From Aequorivita todarodis (GTDB lineage: Bacteria; Bacteroidota; Bacteroidia; Flavobacteriales; Flavobacteriaceae), in NCBI RefSeq assembly GCF_028561335.1, contig NZ_JAQQTG010000006.1:317-64316 (forward strand): a DNA stretch of 64,000 nucleotides. Reading direction: 5' to 3'. Both the position numbers and the translations under genes were made by a program. Numbering within the stretch: position 1 is the stretch's first letter; each line of letters opens with the position of its first letter. Under the pieces are notes generated by a model that ran no database searches, was not told where the DNA came from, and saw nothing but the letters and a program-made list of their open reading frames with translations. Below are positions 3,664-49,746 of the stretch, in pieces.

Positions 3664-4391
3664 TTGAAAATTAATATAAGGCGTTCGGAACTATTTTTAT
3701 CAAATTTGTTTAAATGATAATCGCCGAACGTATGTTTTAGTTCAACTTCTGCTGCTTCAAAATATATGTTGAAATCTTCCAAAGTAAGGGCTTTTACGCG
3801 TTCCGTGAAAAAGTAGTCCTCACCTTCCTCCTTAAAACGGATGTTTTTGATGATGTAGCCATCTTCAACATATTTTTCAAGGTGAAAAACGATATTGCCA
3901 ATCTTTTTCCTTTCTGAGGGAATCATGTTTTTGATTGCGAGCTCAACATTTAGAAAATCTATCACGCCGTGGCCCTCGGGTTTTAATTCAGCTTTGATTG
4001 CCTTTATGGTTCGCAGGTTGTCTTCTTCATTTTCGAAATATCCAAAACTGGTAAAAAGGTTGAATACTGCGTCAAACTGTTTTGGATAGGGCAAACACAT
4101 ATCGTGGACCTCAAAATGAAGCCCGGGCTTTTCGTATTGTTTGGCATATTGAATACTTTCCTCGGAAAGATCTACGCCGGTAACGTCAAAGCCCTGTTTG
4201 TAAAGATATTTGGAGTGGCGCCCGCGGCCACAGGCCAAATCTAAGATGGAATCCTTCGGTTTCAGGTTTAAAAACGCGGTAAGCTGGTTCATAAAAAGTG
4301 CCGCTTCCCGGTGGTTTCGGTCCTTGTAAAGAATGTGGTAATAAGGGGTGTTGAACCACGAAGCGTACCAATTGTCTTTTTCTTTTTGCAT
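3660..4391 (-). CDS. Class I SAM-dependent methyltransferase
   Basis: A 243-residue soluble protein with a standard motif I (ILDLACGRGRHS, residues 49-60) and an acidic residue after strand 2 (VTGVDLSEESI), which hold S-adenosylmethionine. The substrate cannot be told from sequence; close relatives are annotated only as class I or type 11/25 methyltransferases. The stop codon overlaps the start of the ZIP transporter, so this is the first gene of a two-gene operon. It is divergent from the THUMP methyltransferase gene. Confidence 0.85.
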   Translation of the reverse strand: MQKEKDNWYASWFNTPYYHILYKDRNHREAALFMNQLTAFLNLKPKDSILDLACGRGRHSKYLYKQGFDVTGVDLSEESIQYAKQYEKPGLHFEVHDMCLPYPKQFDAVFNLFTSFGYFENEEDNLRTIKAIKAELKPEGHGVIDFLNVELAIKNMIPSERKKIGNIVFHLEKYVEDGYIIKNIRFKEEGEDYFFTERVKALTLEDFNIYFEAAEVELKHTFGDYHLNKFDKNSSERLILIFN

Positions 4392-45861: not shown

Positions 45862-46239
45862 TTATTTCTGAATAAGGTTGGCCTCTGTTACGGTTGCCAA
45901 ACTGTCGCAGTTTTCAATTCTTATTTTTAGGGTTTTTTCTGAAACTTTCCCTTTAATTACATACTGTTTGCAGGAATCCAGACGCGTATTGCTTTCAGAA
46001 AATACTACATCGCCGTCCTTCAATAAAGTTGAAATAGCCGAGGTGTCCATTTGGTTTTCGCGAAGAACTGTCAGCGTTTTTTCAGAAAAGGCGCGTTCTT
46101 TCAATCGGATGTTTTTGAGGGTCCTTGCGTCCAGGCCATAGGCACAAGATGTTTTTTTTCCGCTTAGAATAAAAAAGAGCAGGGCTATTCCAATTATAAA
46201 ACCACCTGAAAAATAGGCCAATCGGTATGCTAACTTCAT
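45862..46239 (-). CDS. Small membrane-anchored protein (DUF4258-like)
   Basis: A 125-residue protein with one N-terminal membrane segment (about 7-26, LAYFSGGFIIGIALLFFILS). A soluble domain follows (DARTLKNIRLKERAFSEKTL, SAISTLLKDGDVVFSESN, LDSCKQYVIKGKVSEKTLKI), resembling DUF4258 proteins of flavobacteria. Two cysteines (TSCAYG and DSCKQY) might form a disulfide. It lies just downstream of ald on the same strand (gap 48 bases) and could share its transcript. Function unknown. Confidence 0.7.
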   Translation of the reverse strand: MKLAYRLAYFSGGFIIGIALLFFILSGKKTSCAYGLDARTLKNIRLKERAFSEKTLTVLRENQMDTSAISTLLKDGDVVFSESNTRLDSCKQYVIKGKVSEKTLKIRIENCDSLATVTEANLIQK

Positions 46240-46287: not shown

Positions 46288-47487
46288 TTAGAAAATCAAT
46301 AAATTAAGATCGCTGTAAGGCATGTCAAACCAATCTGCGACTGCCTTATTTGTCAAAATTCCGCGGTAAAAGTACAACCCATTTTTTAAACCGTTATCAA
46401 AACGGATGGCATTTTCCAATCCTCCGCTTTCGGCAATTTCCAAAATATAGGGTGTGAAGATGTTACTTATGGAAATAGAAGCGGTTTTAGGGTAGCGCGC
46501 GGGAATATTGGGCACGCCATAATGTATCACGTTGTGCTTTATGCAGGTTGGGTTGTCGTGGCTGGTCATTTCGGTAGTTTCAAAACAGCCGCCCATATCT
46601 ACGCAAACATCAATTATTACGGCGCCTTTTTTCATATTTCGCACCATTTCCTCAGTAACAATTATCGGGGCTCTATTTTGTCCGCGGACCGCGCCAATGG
46701 CAACATCGCAGCGCAAAAGGGCCTTCATTAAATTTTTTGGTTGTATCGTTGAAGTATATAGAATGCGATTCACATTCGTTTGAATTGTCCTCAATTTGGT
46801 AATGGAACTATCAAAAACTTTAACGTTGGCACCAAGGCCAAGCGCAGACCGGACTGCAAACTCGCCTACGGTGCCTGCGCCAATTACGACTACCTCAATA
46901 GGAGGGACGCCGCTTATGTTTCCAAAAAGCAGTCCATTTCCCTTTTTCGCATTTACCATTAGCTCTGCCGCAATCAGCACGGAAGCAGTTCCCGCGATTT
47001 CGCTTAAAGCTTTAACGGCGGGATAACTGTGGTCCTCGTCTTTGATAAATTCAAAAGCAAGGGCGGTAATCTTCTTTTTTGAGAGCGCATCGAAGTACGA
47101 TTTTTGTCGGGTTTTTAATTGCAATGCAGAAATTAGAACGGCTTTGGGCTTTATAAGTTCTAATTCTTCGAGGGTAGGTGGTTCCACTTTTAAAACTATT
47201 GGGCAGCCAAATACTTTTTTGGTATCCTCTGTTAATTTTGCGCCGGCTTCCGAGTAATCTTTGTCGGAAAACCCTGCCTCATTCCCAGCTCCTTTTTCAA
47301 TCAAAACCCTGTGGCCATTGCTCACCACGGCATTAACAGCATCTGGAGTAAGACAGATTCGTTTTTCCTGGAAATAGGTTTCTTTTGGAATACCTATGTA
47401 CAGTTCTCCTCTTTGCTTTGATATTTCAAGGGTTTCTTCCTGGGGAAGCAATTGTGCAATCGTGAAAGGTGATTTTGGATTTGGCAT
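46288..47487 (-). CDS. ald: Alanine dehydrogenase
   Basis: A 399-residue enzyme of the alanine dehydrogenase/transhydrogenase family, which interconverts alanine and pyruvate with NAD. It has GIPKETYFQEKRICLTPDAV near residue 30, the NAD-binding VVVIGAGTVGEFAVRSALGL (about 210-230), and GAVRGQNRAPIIVTEEMV and VIDVCVDMGGCFETT further on. It is about 20 residues longer than B. subtilis Ald, from an N-terminal extension usual in Bacteroidota. Upstream is the 3' end of the membrane-protein module. Confidence 0.88.
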   Translation of the reverse strand: MPNPKSPFTIAQLLPQEETLEISKQRGELYIGIPKETYFQEKRICLTPDAVNAVVSNGHRVLIEKGAGNEAGFSDKDYSEAGAKLTEDTKKVFGCPIVLKVEPPTLEELELIKPKAVLISALQLKTRQKSYFDALSKKKITALAFEFIKDEDHSYPAVKALSEIAGTASVLIAAELMVNAKKGNGLLFGNISGVPPIEVVVIGAGTVGEFAVRSALGLGANVKVFDSSITKLRTIQTNVNRILYTSTIQPKNLMKALLRCDVAIGAVRGQNRAPIIVTEEMVRNMKKGAVIIDVCVDMGGCFETTEMTSHDNPTCIKHNVIHYGVPNIPARYPKTASISISNIFTPYILEIAESGGLENAIRFDNGLKNGLYFYRGILTNKAVADWFDMPYSDLNLLIF

Positions 47488-47547: not shown

Positions 47548-48081
47548 TTACCGAAATAGATCTTTTATTTGTTGCCAAAAAGATCTTCTTTGGAGAAGCT
47601 CCTCTTCAAATGATTTCAAATCGTCTGCCCGCATCTGGCTAAAAAGCTTTGCACGGATTAAATAGACAAAGGGGACCAAGATCATCATTATAGGAATTAC
47701 GTAAACTATTTCAACCTCATCAACATCAAAATTTTGTTTTAGAATATTGAACAATTGAAAAACATACATGGAGAGCGGAACCAATATGATCCAATGCCAC
47801 CAGTGCTTGCAAGTAAAAAACCATATAAGCAATAAAATTACAGGAATTACCTTGCCTGTAAGAAACCAGGCATATTGATAAAGGGAAGGGAATTTTGTCG
47901 TAAACTTAAATAGAAAAGTTTCCCAAACTTGTGTGTTGTCTGGGAAACTTTCATACGAGTAATATATAAAAGGGGTAACCGCCATTATGAAGACGATGAT
48001 ACCACCCTGTATAAGGCTTTTTTTATCCGGCTGGCGGAACTTTAACCGTTCTCGCGTCGATTTGTTGTGGGGTTTGTTCAT
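47548..48081 (-). CDS. Conserved membrane protein, module copy A
   Basis: A 177-residue protein with three or four hydrophobic segments (about 24-42, 76-98, 105-122, 133-152), a basic N-terminus (MNKPHNKSTRERLKFRQPDK) and a charged C-terminal tail (LKSFEEELLQRRSFWQQIKD). Conserved features shared with copy B include YYSYESFP, WETFLF, TCKHWWHWIILVPLSMY, VDEVEI and YLIRAKL. The start is placed at the MNK codon since the frame further upstream is only a shadow of the small lipoprotein gene, which overlaps it by 59 bases. I do not recognise a functional family. Confidence 0.8.
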   Translation of the reverse strand: MNKPHNKSTRERLKFRQPDKKSLIQGGIIVFIMAVTPFIYYSYESFPDNTQVWETFLFKFTTKFPSLYQYAWFLTGKVIPVILLLIWFFTCKHWWHWIILVPLSMYVFQLFNILKQNFDVDEVEIVYVIPIMMILVPFVYLIRAKLFSQMRADDLKSFEEELLQRRSFWQQIKDLFR

Positions 48082-48163
48082 CCTGGATTCCTTCTGGGGT
48101 ACAAGAAGCAAATAATCCTGCGGCAAAAATTGCGGCTACAATAATAAGTTTTAGATTTTTCAT
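48023..48163 (-). CDS. 46-residue lipoprotein overlapping the membrane protein, copy A
   Basis: A 46-residue peptide beginning MKNLKLIIVAAIFAAGLFAS with a lipobox cysteine at position 21, then TPEGIQDEQTPQQIDARTVK and a PPAG end. It was missed by its size. It is 69 percent or so similar to copy B, has the same length, an identical leader arrangement and the same out-of-frame overlap with the following membrane-protein gene. The -7 element is at 48195-48202. It should be exported and lipidated at the inner or outer membrane. Its strict conservation between copies argues that it is real. Confidence 0.8.
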   Translation of the reverse strand: MKNLKLIIVAAIFAAGLFASCTPEGIQDEQTPQQIDARTVKVPPAG

Positions 48164-48557
48164 AATAGTAAGTTTTTGTGAGGTTAATATGGGTCAAACT
48201 TACAATCAAAAAACTTAAACATAATAATTATGTTTATGGTATCTTTACAGGTTATTCTGCAATAAAATGCTTTGAAATACATTCTAATCTCCAAATTGGT
48301 GTTAAAAATTTAACACTCCGAATAAATCAGGAATTATATTCTCTTATTTCAATGACACTTATTGGTTGGTTTGCTTCTGGTTTTTTTGTTCGTATATAGG
48401 TTTAGTTTTGAGGTTTTCTTTATGTATGCCATCACAAGGAATTTATGATAAACTGCCTTTTTTTGATAGCCGCTGTAATTTGCAAAAGGTCAAATCGCAA
48501 AAAAAATCAACGGTCTAAGGTACGGATTAAATTTGATATTGAATATAGTGAGGCGAA
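48164..48557. other. Spacer upstream of module copy A
   Basis: This 394-base AT-rich stretch contains the copy A leader and -7 element and a perfect 8-bp-arm palindrome at 48299-48316 (GTGTTAAA-AA-TTTAACAC). Beyond that I see no gene or RNA. Confidence 0.6.
48195..48202 (-). promoter_or_regulatory. Candidate -7 element of module copy A
   Basis: On the minus strand TAAGTTTG matches TAnnTTTG, 32 bases before the lipoprotein ATG. The leader contains AAGTTTTTGTGAGGTTAATA (plus-strand reading), nearly identical in copy B. Confidence 0.55.
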
Positions 48558-49070
48558 TCAAAAAAGATCCTTGATCTGTTGCCACAGGTTCTTTTTGACC
48601 CCCAAATCTTCTTCAAAACTTTTCAAATCCTTTTCCATCAATTTGTTCGAAAGCCTGGCCCTAATAAGGTAAACCAGAGGAATAATTACCAACATTATGG
48701 GGAAAAGCCACCAGATTTCTACCTCGTCCACAAAGCCCACGTCGTCATTTATAACGTTGAAAAGCTGGAAGGCAAACATACCTATGGGTATTAATATAAC
48801 GTGGTACCACCAGTGTTTGCAAGTAATAAACCAAATGACCAGCAACAATAGCGGTACAAACTTGCCCATCATGGTCCATACCGAAACATATACTTCCTGG
48901 TACCAGTTGGCATGATAGGTAAACAAAAAAGTTTCCCACGTATTGGTTTGTGGGAAACTTTCATAAGAATAAAATATATAGGGCGATGCCGCTATAATAA
49001 GTGCTATAATACTACCCGTGACTAGGGACGATGATTTTGCTTTTGTGGATTTGTTGGGGTGCTTGTTCAT
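48558..49070 (-). CDS. Conserved membrane protein, module copy B
   Basis: A 170-residue paralogue of the protein at 47548-48081, with the same hydrophobic layout, FYSYESFP, NTWETFLF, TCKHWWYHVILIPIGMF, VDEVEIWW, YLIRARL and LKSFEEDLGVKKNLWQQIKD. It starts MNKHPNKSTKAKSSS. It is overlapped at its 5' end by the second small lipoprotein gene (59 bases, different frame). The tandem arrangement shows a duplication of the two-gene unit. Both copies remain intact, so selection has kept both. Confidence 0.8.
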   Translation of the reverse strand: MNKHPNKSTKAKSSSLVTGSIIALIIAASPYIFYSYESFPQTNTWETFLFTYHANWYQEVYVSVWTMMGKFVPLLLLVIWFITCKHWWYHVILIPIGMFAFQLFNVINDDVGFVDEVEIWWLFPIMLVIIPLVYLIRARLSNKLMEKDLKSFEEDLGVKKNLWQQIKDLF

Positions 49071-49152
49071 CCTGGATGCTTTCTGGGGTGCAAGAAGCAA
49101 AGGTTCCCAATGAAAAAATTGCTGCGATAAAAAGTACTTTTAGAGTTTTCAT
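49012..49152 (-). CDS. 46-residue lipoprotein overlapping the membrane protein, copy B
   Basis: A 46-residue peptide beginning MKTLKVLFIAAIFSLGTFAS with lipobox cysteine 21, then TPESIQDEQAPQQIHKSKII and a VPSHG end. It has the same length as copy A; IQDEQ and PQQI are identical between the two. The gene overlaps the downstream membrane-protein gene by 59 bases in another frame. A -7 element (49184-49191) sits 32 bases before the ATG, as in copy A. The tail after the lipid site is short and probably extended. Confidence 0.8.
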   Translation of the reverse strand: MKTLKVLFIAAIFSLGTFASCTPESIQDEQAPQQIHKSKIIVPSHG

Positions 49153-49183
49153 AATATAAGTTTTTGTGAGGTTAATAACACTT

Positions 49184-49216
49184 CAAACCTACTATGAAAA
49201 AAGAAAAATAAAACAA
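49184..49216 (-). promoter_or_regulatory. Candidate promoter of module copy B
   Basis: On the minus strand TAGGTTTG (49184-49191) is the -7 element, with a TTG at 49214-49216 on that strand giving a 22-base spacer. The distance to the ATG is the same as in copy A. Confidence 0.55.
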
Positions 49217-49332: not shown

Positions 49333-49746
49333 TTAGTTCATTGGCAAAATTTTTAAGGTTCTACTTCCGTTATTGTTACTATTAATGATCAGTTTGGTGG
49401 CCTGCCGGGGTAAAAGTGCACTTACTTTCTCCGGCCATTCTATAAAGATATAGGCGCCACTGCATAAATAATCTTCCACGCCTATATCATAAGCTTCGGC
49501 AATATCGTTAATTCTGTAAAAATCAAAGTGATATACAACCCCATCCGTAGCTTCATATTCATTGACAATCGAAAAGGAAGGACTGCCCGATAGCTCCAGG
49601 ACCCCAAGTTGTTTTACAAGTTCCTTAATGAGTGTGGTTTTGCCTACCCCCATTTCACCATAAAGTAGGAATATATTGGATGCTGATGCCTTAAGGATTT
49701 GTGCAGCAACTTTGGAAATTTCGTTTTGGGTGTATGTGATTTCCAT
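49333..49746 (-). CDS. tsaE: tRNA threonylcarbamoyladenosine biosynthesis protein TsaE
   Basis: A 137-residue ATPase that supports t6A37 formation in ANN-decoding tRNAs with TsaB, TsaC and TsaD. The P-loop GEMGVGKTT is at 30-38, and the downstream DFYRINDIAEAYDIGVEDYL and IFIEWPEKVSALLP segments match the family. It is complete. Partner genes are not in this window. It lies 85 bases before porX, as in several flavobacteria. Confidence 0.92.
   Translation of the reverse strand: MEITYTQNEISKVAAQILKASASNIFLLYGEMGVGKTTLIKELVKQLGVLELSGSPSFSIVNEYEATDGVVYHFDFYRINDIAEAYDIGVEDYLCSGAYIFIEWPEKVSALLPRQATKLIINSNNNGSRTLKILPMN

Follow-up and report, generated by a model that had tools for sequence, protein, structure and literature searches.

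A hairpin running into a U-tract lies inside each of two tandem membrane protein genes of Aequorivita todarodis, and we consider it somewhat probable that this element is the transcription terminator of the small overlapping gene upstream, written into the codons of its neighbour. The DNA concerned (the window) is a stretch of 64,000 nucleotides (nt) from assembly GCF_028561335.1, contig NZ_JAQQTG010000006.1, positions 317 to 64,316, whose closest named relatives also indicate the genus Aequorivita. Two cassettes stand there on the minus strand between tsaE and ald, each pairing a gene for a small exported peptide, which we call lip, with an overlapping gene for a membrane protein, which we call mem (Table 1). 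An earlier description of this DNA (the original prediction) had reported two tandem pairs of a 46-codon and a membrane-protein open reading frame (ORF), a 59-base overlap, a shared leader and a TAnnTTTG element ahead of the ATG. All of this was borne out: the coordinates are right and all four ORFs are on the minus strand, the overlap is exactly 59 nt in both copies, a leader 20-mer is common to both (AAGTTTTTGTGAGGTTAATA on the plus strand, TATTAACCTCACAAAAACTT in mRNA sense), and the element has the same spacing in each. The hairpin inside each mem gene is a feature beyond that first reading.

A conserved hairpin and U-tract within mem

Counts below refer to 160 loci, 80 named and 80 other; the 155 distinct loci are the distinct mem proteins among the 159 loci having lip, and a further 30 loci (L083-L112), which include the window itself and belong in part to the same species, stand outside the main counts. 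In the window the hairpins fold better than dinucleotide shuffles (z -4.92 for copy 2 and -4.84 for copy 1, with 0/200 shuffles folding as well), their stems starting about 50 nt past the lip stop codon. The hairpin is located near mem codons 37-50, just past the code for the first helix, and has the form of an intrinsic terminator, a stable stem-loop followed directly by a U-tract.

Folding was assessed across the family in 66-nt segments against 40 within-gene synonymous codon shuffles for 155 mem genes (154 with lip plus L072; L045 and L300, the mem starts of which could not be placed, were left out), the mem start being taken as the ATG nearest the profile start, with GTG and TTG starts ignored. 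The mean z was -2.52 at residue 40, where 73% of the 155 genes had z<-2, and -1.46 at residue 20 (24% of genes), with the 11 other positions ranging from -0.29 to +0.13. The set comprises 132 overlapping loci, 22 non-overlapping loci and, apart from both, L072, in which the small frame is split across two frames (3906-4059). At residue 40, z<-2 was found in 109/132 overlapping versus 3/22 non-overlapping loci (Fisher 4e-10), the three being L032, L035 and L262, and L072 has the hairpin too. Perfect stems of at least 9 bp, G-U pairs allowed, were present in 120/132 overlapping loci versus 160/660 synonymous shuffles.

Placed in protein-alignment columns, the 12-nt arms of the hairpin were 87% paired, versus 79% (maximum 81%) with shuffled 3' letters, over 73 distinct pairs, and doubly changed cells numbered 71 versus 26 (maximum 38) in shuffles; sliding the arms by 1-3 nt dropped pairing to 34-63%. 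The clearest coupling joins F39 (TTC) to E46 (GAA) through a T-A pair, versus V39 (GTC) to D46 or N46 (GAC, AAC) through a G-C pair. In the non-overlapping loci arm pairing was 56% versus 57% when shuffled, with no covariation. The U-tract held 8.47 T of 10 in overlapping loci versus 7.25 by synonymous sampling, and 6.43 versus 6.09 of 10 in the other 23 loci (L072 included). By these comparisons, the hairpin and U-tract are conserved beyond codon need, with compensatory change. A second hairpin, GGGAGT...ACTCCC followed by a U-rich stretch, occupies mem codons 19-30 in many loci (such as L299, L274 and L321), and the structure at residue 20, strong elsewhere, is weak in both copies of the window (z -0.10 and -0.77).

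Loci in which lip and mem are apart mostly lack the mem hairpin, and about half appear to have a terminator in the gap instead. A terminator-like hairpin with a U-tract was found between the genes in 12/23 non-overlapping loci, with 0.4 expected from dinucleotide shuffles, under a rule widened after inspecting folds, the stricter first rule giving 9/25; further gap hairpins were seen by eye in L043 and L045. In the Galbibacter clade the gap contains a long inverted repeat around GGAT...AATTTGTG...ATCC (about 3934-3993 in L045; also in L033, L035 and L040), which is not terminator-like and is possibly an operator.

A hairpin just past the first-helix code might also be a pause or stability element for mem translation or mRNA, and hairpins can protect or pause. 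We hold this unlikely: the hairpin is present in so few of the non-overlapping loci despite the homologous protein region, gap terminators replace it in about half of them, and the U-tract excess is found mainly in overlapping loci. It is also absent from two-domain mem paralogues without lip, whose folding shows no excess (13 genes, 880 segments, mean z -0.08, 5.1% with z<-2).

The original prediction had read the exact conservation of the overlap as a sign of translational coupling, and as stated this is not supported. Although 59 nt is the commonest overlap (40/62 overlapping named and 44/72 overlapping other loci), its length ranges over 35-89 nt among overlapping loci, and in 23/155 distinct loci there is no overlap and the pair persists; the evidence favours instead a separate termination of lip, inside mem or, in those 12 gap loci, in the gap.

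The lip gene and its conserved tail

The original prediction had made the reality of the 46-residue frame depend on its conservation in relatives. Across 16 genomes (L003-L018, of which 15 are named Aequorivita and the other a near relative), the ratio of nonsynonymous to synonymous polymorphism (pN/pS) in lip codons 1-27, outside the overlap, was 0.24 for copy 2 and 0.17 for copy 1; within the overlap the lip frame gave 0.41 and 0.40 and the mem frame 0.50 and 1.14. Because codons 1-27 are under purifying selection the frame stands, and on this comparison lip is a real gene, selected as such outside the overlap.

Judged from its upstream sequence, lip also has its own promoter box. TAnnTTTG, described in the cited part of one study as an ordinary Bacteroidota -7 promoter element (PMC6847099), precedes the small ORF by at most 90 nt in 144/159 loci, with 11.2 expected from letter shuffles. 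The box is TAGGTTTG in 66/144 loci; in the Flavobacterium johnsoniae promoters given there as TAHHTTTG, G is nearly absent at the two positions of TAGGTTTG (PMC6847099). There is no clear -33 box, as TTG lies 17-26 nt upstream of the -7 box in 18/144 loci.

The product had been called a lipoprotein, a label that fits Aequorivita and does not extend to the family. Both window copies possess the lipobox cysteine, lipidation being predicted only, whilst among the 155 distinct loci a cysteine in the lipobox region is present in 71 and absent in 84. Since many of the Cys-less proteins carry a signal peptide like those cleaved by signal peptidase I (SPI), for example ...FTAQAT-NLIDLNEQ..., the hyphen marking the cleavage site as we read it, lipidation would, on the sequences compared, be dispensable across the family. 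The lipoprotein export signal defined in the cited part of PMC5080379, K-(D/E)2 or an S-D/E-rich stretch right after the cysteine, was not found in the window copies, which read CTPES and CTPEG at this point. The common feature of lip is its C-terminal tail, roughly I(D/E)KxxIKVPxxG-stop: P-x(1,3)-G-stop ends 128/155 distinct loci, and the last residue is G in 131/155.

The original prediction had recognised neither protein family. No Pfam or NCBIfam cut-off was reached by lip or mem of either copy, and a PADLOC scan of copy 2 mem and lip (the only copy scanned) gave no match at E up to 1. The two lip proteins scored 15.3 and 16.6 bits against the PG1828 family lipoprotein (NF050142; cut-off 50) and 16.8 and 20.0 bits, E 7.4e-3 and 7.9e-4, against BhsA (NF047859; cut-off 90); the likeness is weak and lies in the signal-peptide part, the first 31-34 residues aligning.

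Amplification of lip, as tandem genes or as repeats of the tail, occurs in 11/23 non-overlapping versus 0/132 overlapping loci (Fisher 6e-11, uncorrected for relatedness). Robertkochia has seven nearly identical lip genes ahead of one mem, Joostella four and two Galbibacter three, and most of the spacers separating lip genes in the arrays read are short and lack structure. Arenibacter, Maribacter and others have a doubled 12-residue tail (e.g. IDRTKIKVPANG-IDRTKIKVPTNG). Outside this count, L094 encodes one exported precursor in which the tail IDKFQKPPKHG is repeated six times in tandem (FIDKFQKPPKHGFA-type units), much as in peptide pheromone precursors of the multi-copy kind; L098, from that genus too, has three tails, and in neither locus does lip overlap mem. 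Kordia L038 and L044 repeat the entire pair and were not counted as lip amplification.

An exported peptide with a conserved C-terminus ahead of a membrane-protein gene recalls the arrest peptides that monitor Sec and YidC, namely SecM, MifM, VemP, ApdA and uDF_NAP-stop (PMC10987492, as cited in part), and lip could in principle be a regulatory leader that stalls ribosomes to control mem. In line with this, lip has the N-terminal localisation signal and conserved C-terminus of an arrest peptide, with a short linker and a Pro close to the stop, and stands upstream of one membrane gene. The spacer from localisation signal to motif end is, however, more than 30 residues by the definition in the cited passages (PMC10987492) and about 25 after the lipobox Cys in the 46-47-residue forms of lip. 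Up to seven tandem genes, and two to six tails per precursor in some loci, fit a stalling leader poorly, and the final residues vary. No secA, secDF or yidC was recognised downstream of lip, and mem is not a recognised Sec/YidC component or other localisation factor because it has no Pfam family. We therefore give the arrest-leader explanation very little credence.

A further parallel is offered by the DAG-RiPP precursors of Bacteroidota (ChrA-DybA), which like lip have a signal for signal peptidase II or I and a functional conserved C-terminal motif, as far as the cited passages describe them (PMC12636315). Their motif is CPxCGxG, modified by an MNIO enzyme (PMC12636315), whereas the partner of lip is a four-transmembrane (four-TM) protein. 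CPxCGxG is absent from the lip tails inspected, and a Pfam scan of 10 neighbours in the window found no MNIO enzyme, the other loci having been checked only for the window's neighbours.

The mem partner

The lasting association of the small gene with the membrane protein, part of the original reading, is supported: a small exported ORF lies upstream of mem in 79/80 named and 80/80 other loci (159/160), and in 29/30 of the extra loci. The sole exception among the 160 is L072, where the split of the small frame may be an assembly error or real, and the mem hairpin is intact (z -3.1). Paralogous pairs also stay together, in Kordia (L038, L044) and in Aequorivita. Relatives of mem occur in 212/299 sampled Flavobacteriaceae genomes, in 19/296 genomes of the order sample (two of them, G300 and G314, outside the family, and one match, in G127, containing an internal stop) and in 12/395 of the phylum sample, all 12 in Flavobacteriaceae; in the order and phylum samples most match-less genomes among those listed belong to one genus, g127. 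The cassette follows tsaE and precedes ald in 78/80 named loci, the exceptions being L020 without ald and L048 without tsaE in the stretch examined. Strong lip matches are present in 23/28 Aequorivita genomes. In the remaining five (G574, G575, G582, G587, G594; mem was not sought elsewhere in them) tsaE adjoins ald with no lip or mem between, from which the cassette is, by this synteny, gained or lost cleanly at a single site.

Four helices are predicted for mem, so that of the three or four helices first suggested four stands and three does not, and the N-terminus is placed inside by charge. The outer loops of copy 2 are clearly acidic (K+R 0; D+E 3 and 4). Over 95 aligned proteins, P40, T83, W87, W88 and P95 are invariant. 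A PDB profile search with mem gave a best E of 0.38; two AlphaFold2 models of copy 2 mem had mean pLDDT (predicted local distance difference test) scores of 75.1 and 75.0, and found nothing in the PDB at E<=0.001, nor did the second model among viral predictions at the same threshold. A weak match of mem to a LytS-type histidine kinase (E 4.0e-5, Pfam His_kinase), from one genome and over 64 model positions, was set aside.

Among 75/80 named loci (L079 removed by hand, the others missing lip, a neighbour or a full mem), distances between lip tails follow those between mem proteins once the contributions of ald and tsaE are removed (partial r 0.457), and signal-peptide distances do not (partial r 0.05). 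We suggest that the tail is the active part of lip and mem its specific partner, signalling being the bolder option.

The near-constant pairing, the conserved position and the retention of paralogous pairs would also suit two subunits of one envelope complex without a signalling role, and similar expression logic could serve an uneven stoichiometry. This we find possible yet rather doubtful, as lip genes in tandem and tails in repeats point to a peptide that is released or driven by dosage, and more than half of the distinct loci lack the lipobox Cys. An antagonism pair, in which lip would act like a bacteriocin or a lysis peptide and mem would confer immunity to it, would account for a small peptide with a membrane partner, for tandem copies, and for the lip-less mem-like genes of some genomes, which resemble orphan immunity genes. 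It too seems improbable: the fixed site, the presence in 212/299 family genomes and purifying selection are housekeeping-like rather than signs of an arms race, PADLOC matched nothing in copy 2, and the neighbours recurring in the named loci are porX, tsaE, ald and putA, not export or maturation genes, other genes not having been searched for.

A second partner family and two-domain paralogues

The same genome has another cassette (G000:C7:18712-19311, L331) in which the gene for a lipoprotein of 51 residues shares ~80 nt with that of a different four-TM protein. This second partner family was found in 9/199 family genomes with a narrower profile (A4) and in 6/296 order genomes with profile A5, and a small exported ORF precedes and overlaps it in 19/22 loci read (5/5, 8/9 and 6/8; L343, with internal stops, is not among them). 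Five Aequorivita share the last ~50 residues of this partner protein almost without variation (A4). Homology with mem is not claimed, because the hhalign probability is 7.5%. In 7/13 second-family genes z<-2 was reached in the nt 150-210 region; the genes with a minimum listed there (L244, L245, L247, L331) are all from Aequorivita, L333 is an independent case with z -7.1 at nt 120, and L336 and L338 had no segment below z -2. This suggests that the design recurs, and not only the gene.

Two-domain mem-like proteins of ~400 amino acids (aa) are encoded on the opposite strand, between porX and tsaE or nearby (L033, L035, L039, L040, L041, L043, L050, L053; L169-L175). A ~125-aa CI-like helix-turn-helix (HTH) protein is encoded next to them, and occurs in the stretch examined in 7/8 named loci with two-domain mem versus 2/72 of the others; it reached no Pfam family, its best PDB match is a CI repressor at E 0.05, and 'CI-like' is partly our own reading. 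The window's genome has no clear copy (best E 0.069), for which reason this protein is excluded from the mechanism proposed here.

Layout of the locus

Beyond the features of Table 1, a 125-aa protein with no Pfam family at 1e-3 is encoded downstream of ald (45862-46239, minus strand) and adjoins ald in most loci, including most cassette-less ones.

Table 1. Features of the two lip-mem cassettes and their neighbours (window coordinates), with the position of the L094 precursor for comparison.
Feature	Coordinates	Strand	Basis or remark
tsaE, conserved upstream neighbour	49333..49746	-	Pfam TsaE 1.7e-34, synteny
Copy 2 -7 promoter box TAGGTTTG	49184..49191	-	31 nt between box and ATG
Copy 2 lip, 46 aa, small exported lipoprotein, tail IHKSKIIVPSHG-stop	49012..49152	-	ORF, pN/pS
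Copy 2 overlap, 59 nt, out of frame	49012..49070	-	Sequence
Copy 2 mem, 170 aa, four-TM (predicted)	48558..49070	-	ORF, AlphaFold2 model, relatives
Copy 2 hairpin, 13-bp perfect stem, 10-nt loop, mem codons ESFP..WETF	48927..48962	-	Inverted-repeat inspection, folding
Copy 2 U-tract UUUUUUGUUU 3' of hairpin	48921..48930	-	Sequence
Copy 1 -7 promoter box TAAGTTTG	48195..48202	-	31 nt between box and ATG
Copy 1 lip, 46 aa, small exported lipoprotein, tail IDARTVKVPPAG-stop	48023..48163	-	ORF, pN/pS
Copy 1 overlap, 59 nt, out of frame	48023..48081	-	Sequence
Copy 1 mem, 177 aa, four-TM (predicted)	47548..48081	-	ORF; 52% identical to copy 2
Copy 1 hairpin, 15-bp perfect stem, 9-nt loop, inside mem	47914..47952	-	Inverted-repeat inspection, folding
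Copy 1 U-rich stretch UUUUCUAUUU 3' of hairpin	47908..47917	-	Sequence
ald (alanine dehydrogenase), conserved downstream neighbour	46288..47487	-	Pfam AlaDh_PNT, synteny
L094 six-tail precursor	-427 to -94 from mem start		Upstream of mem

Proposed mechanism

On the whole we lean towards a separately terminated exported peptide and a dedicated four-TM partner made in unequal amounts. In this proposal lip would have its own promoter and its own intrinsic terminator and would be nested with the gene for its inner-membrane partner: in overlapping loci mem starts inside lip, and the lip terminator would sit in mem codons ~37-50. Most transcripts would end at the mem hairpin, yielding much lip and little mem, and a ribosome that had started on mem would open the hairpin so that polymerase could pass; one halting at the lip stop, ~50 nt before the stem, would be too far away to cover it. 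From the position of the hairpin relative to the lip stop and to mem translation we infer high lip, low mem and a read-through favoured by mem initiation, so that initiation on mem and completion of its mRNA would become one decision. More speculatively, the conserved C-terminal ~12 residues (IDKxxIKVPxxG) may be the active peptide, presented at the surface or within the periplasm, and the tail may act on mem as its specific partner, perhaps as ligand to receptor, a function that is plausible from the features of the two genes.

Several observations, together with the widened gap-terminator rule, weigh against this proposal. A transcript ended at the hairpin would contain a mem frame lacking its stop codon, which would be costly unless mem is seldom initiated or its initiation is coupled. 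A simple terminator scan, which allows loops of 3-8 nt, missed the window hairpins, whose loops are 9-10 nt, and even under the wider rule 11/23 gap loci have no terminator, among them the Galbibacter/Joostella/Robertkochia clade with its tandem lip arrays. In L112 (G219) mem has no small ORF ahead of it; a related ORF, which has three tail-like repeats (KIEKARxTxQMIA), follows mem. The last lip residue is other than G in 24/155 distinct loci, tail distances also follow tsaE (partial r 0.332), the outer loops of copy 1 mem are less acidic (K+R 2 and 1; D+E 3 and 3), and no signalling domain was found on mem. The loci, moreover, share ancestry, and their counts are those of non-independent trials.

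Termination within ORFs has a known counterpart in the ORF-internal premature transcription termination of E. coli, as far as the cited part of that report goes (PMC7815308). Unlike that case, the mem hairpin is old, covaries with amino acids family-wide and appears to serve an overlapping upstream gene. Peptide pheromone precursors linked to membrane receptors, such as ComC/ComD and SHP/Rgg, with the yeast alpha-factor as a case of repeated units, resemble lip and mem in having an exported precursor, a C-terminal segment that is sometimes repeated (six times in L094) and a linked membrane partner; mem differs in having no detected kinase domain, and lip and mem are known from their genes alone. 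A literature search, at record level and in the passages cited, found nothing describing the lip-mem pair, and at record level no secreted peptide signal system for the phylum turned up.

Implications

As a tentative extension, to which we attach clearly less than even confidence, Flavobacteriaceae might share a family-wide form of peptide communication, in which IDKxxIKVPxxG peptides, some from precursors of 2-6 copies, act on four-TM receptors that carry the peptide gene's terminator and for which the start of mem enables completion of the mRNA; there would be two receptor families lacking detectable homology, with the CI-like regulator and the two-domain paralogues as an output branch in some genera.

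If the terminator reading is true, one gene's terminator can persist for very long inside the codons of the next gene, and the conservation of F39/V39, P40, W45 and E46/D46 may be partly due to RNA; RNA folding and the mem protein sequence would have evolved together in many marine flavobacteria. The family also offers a natural contrast between an overlap with a hidden terminator and a gap, often with an open terminator, amplification being seen only in the latter, which should be useful for asking what constraints gene overlap puts on copy number and stoichiometry. The pair lies below Pfam and NCBIfam cut-offs, yet most of the genomes sampled from this major family of marine bacteria have it, and lip appears to bear the marks of a secreted peptide signal.

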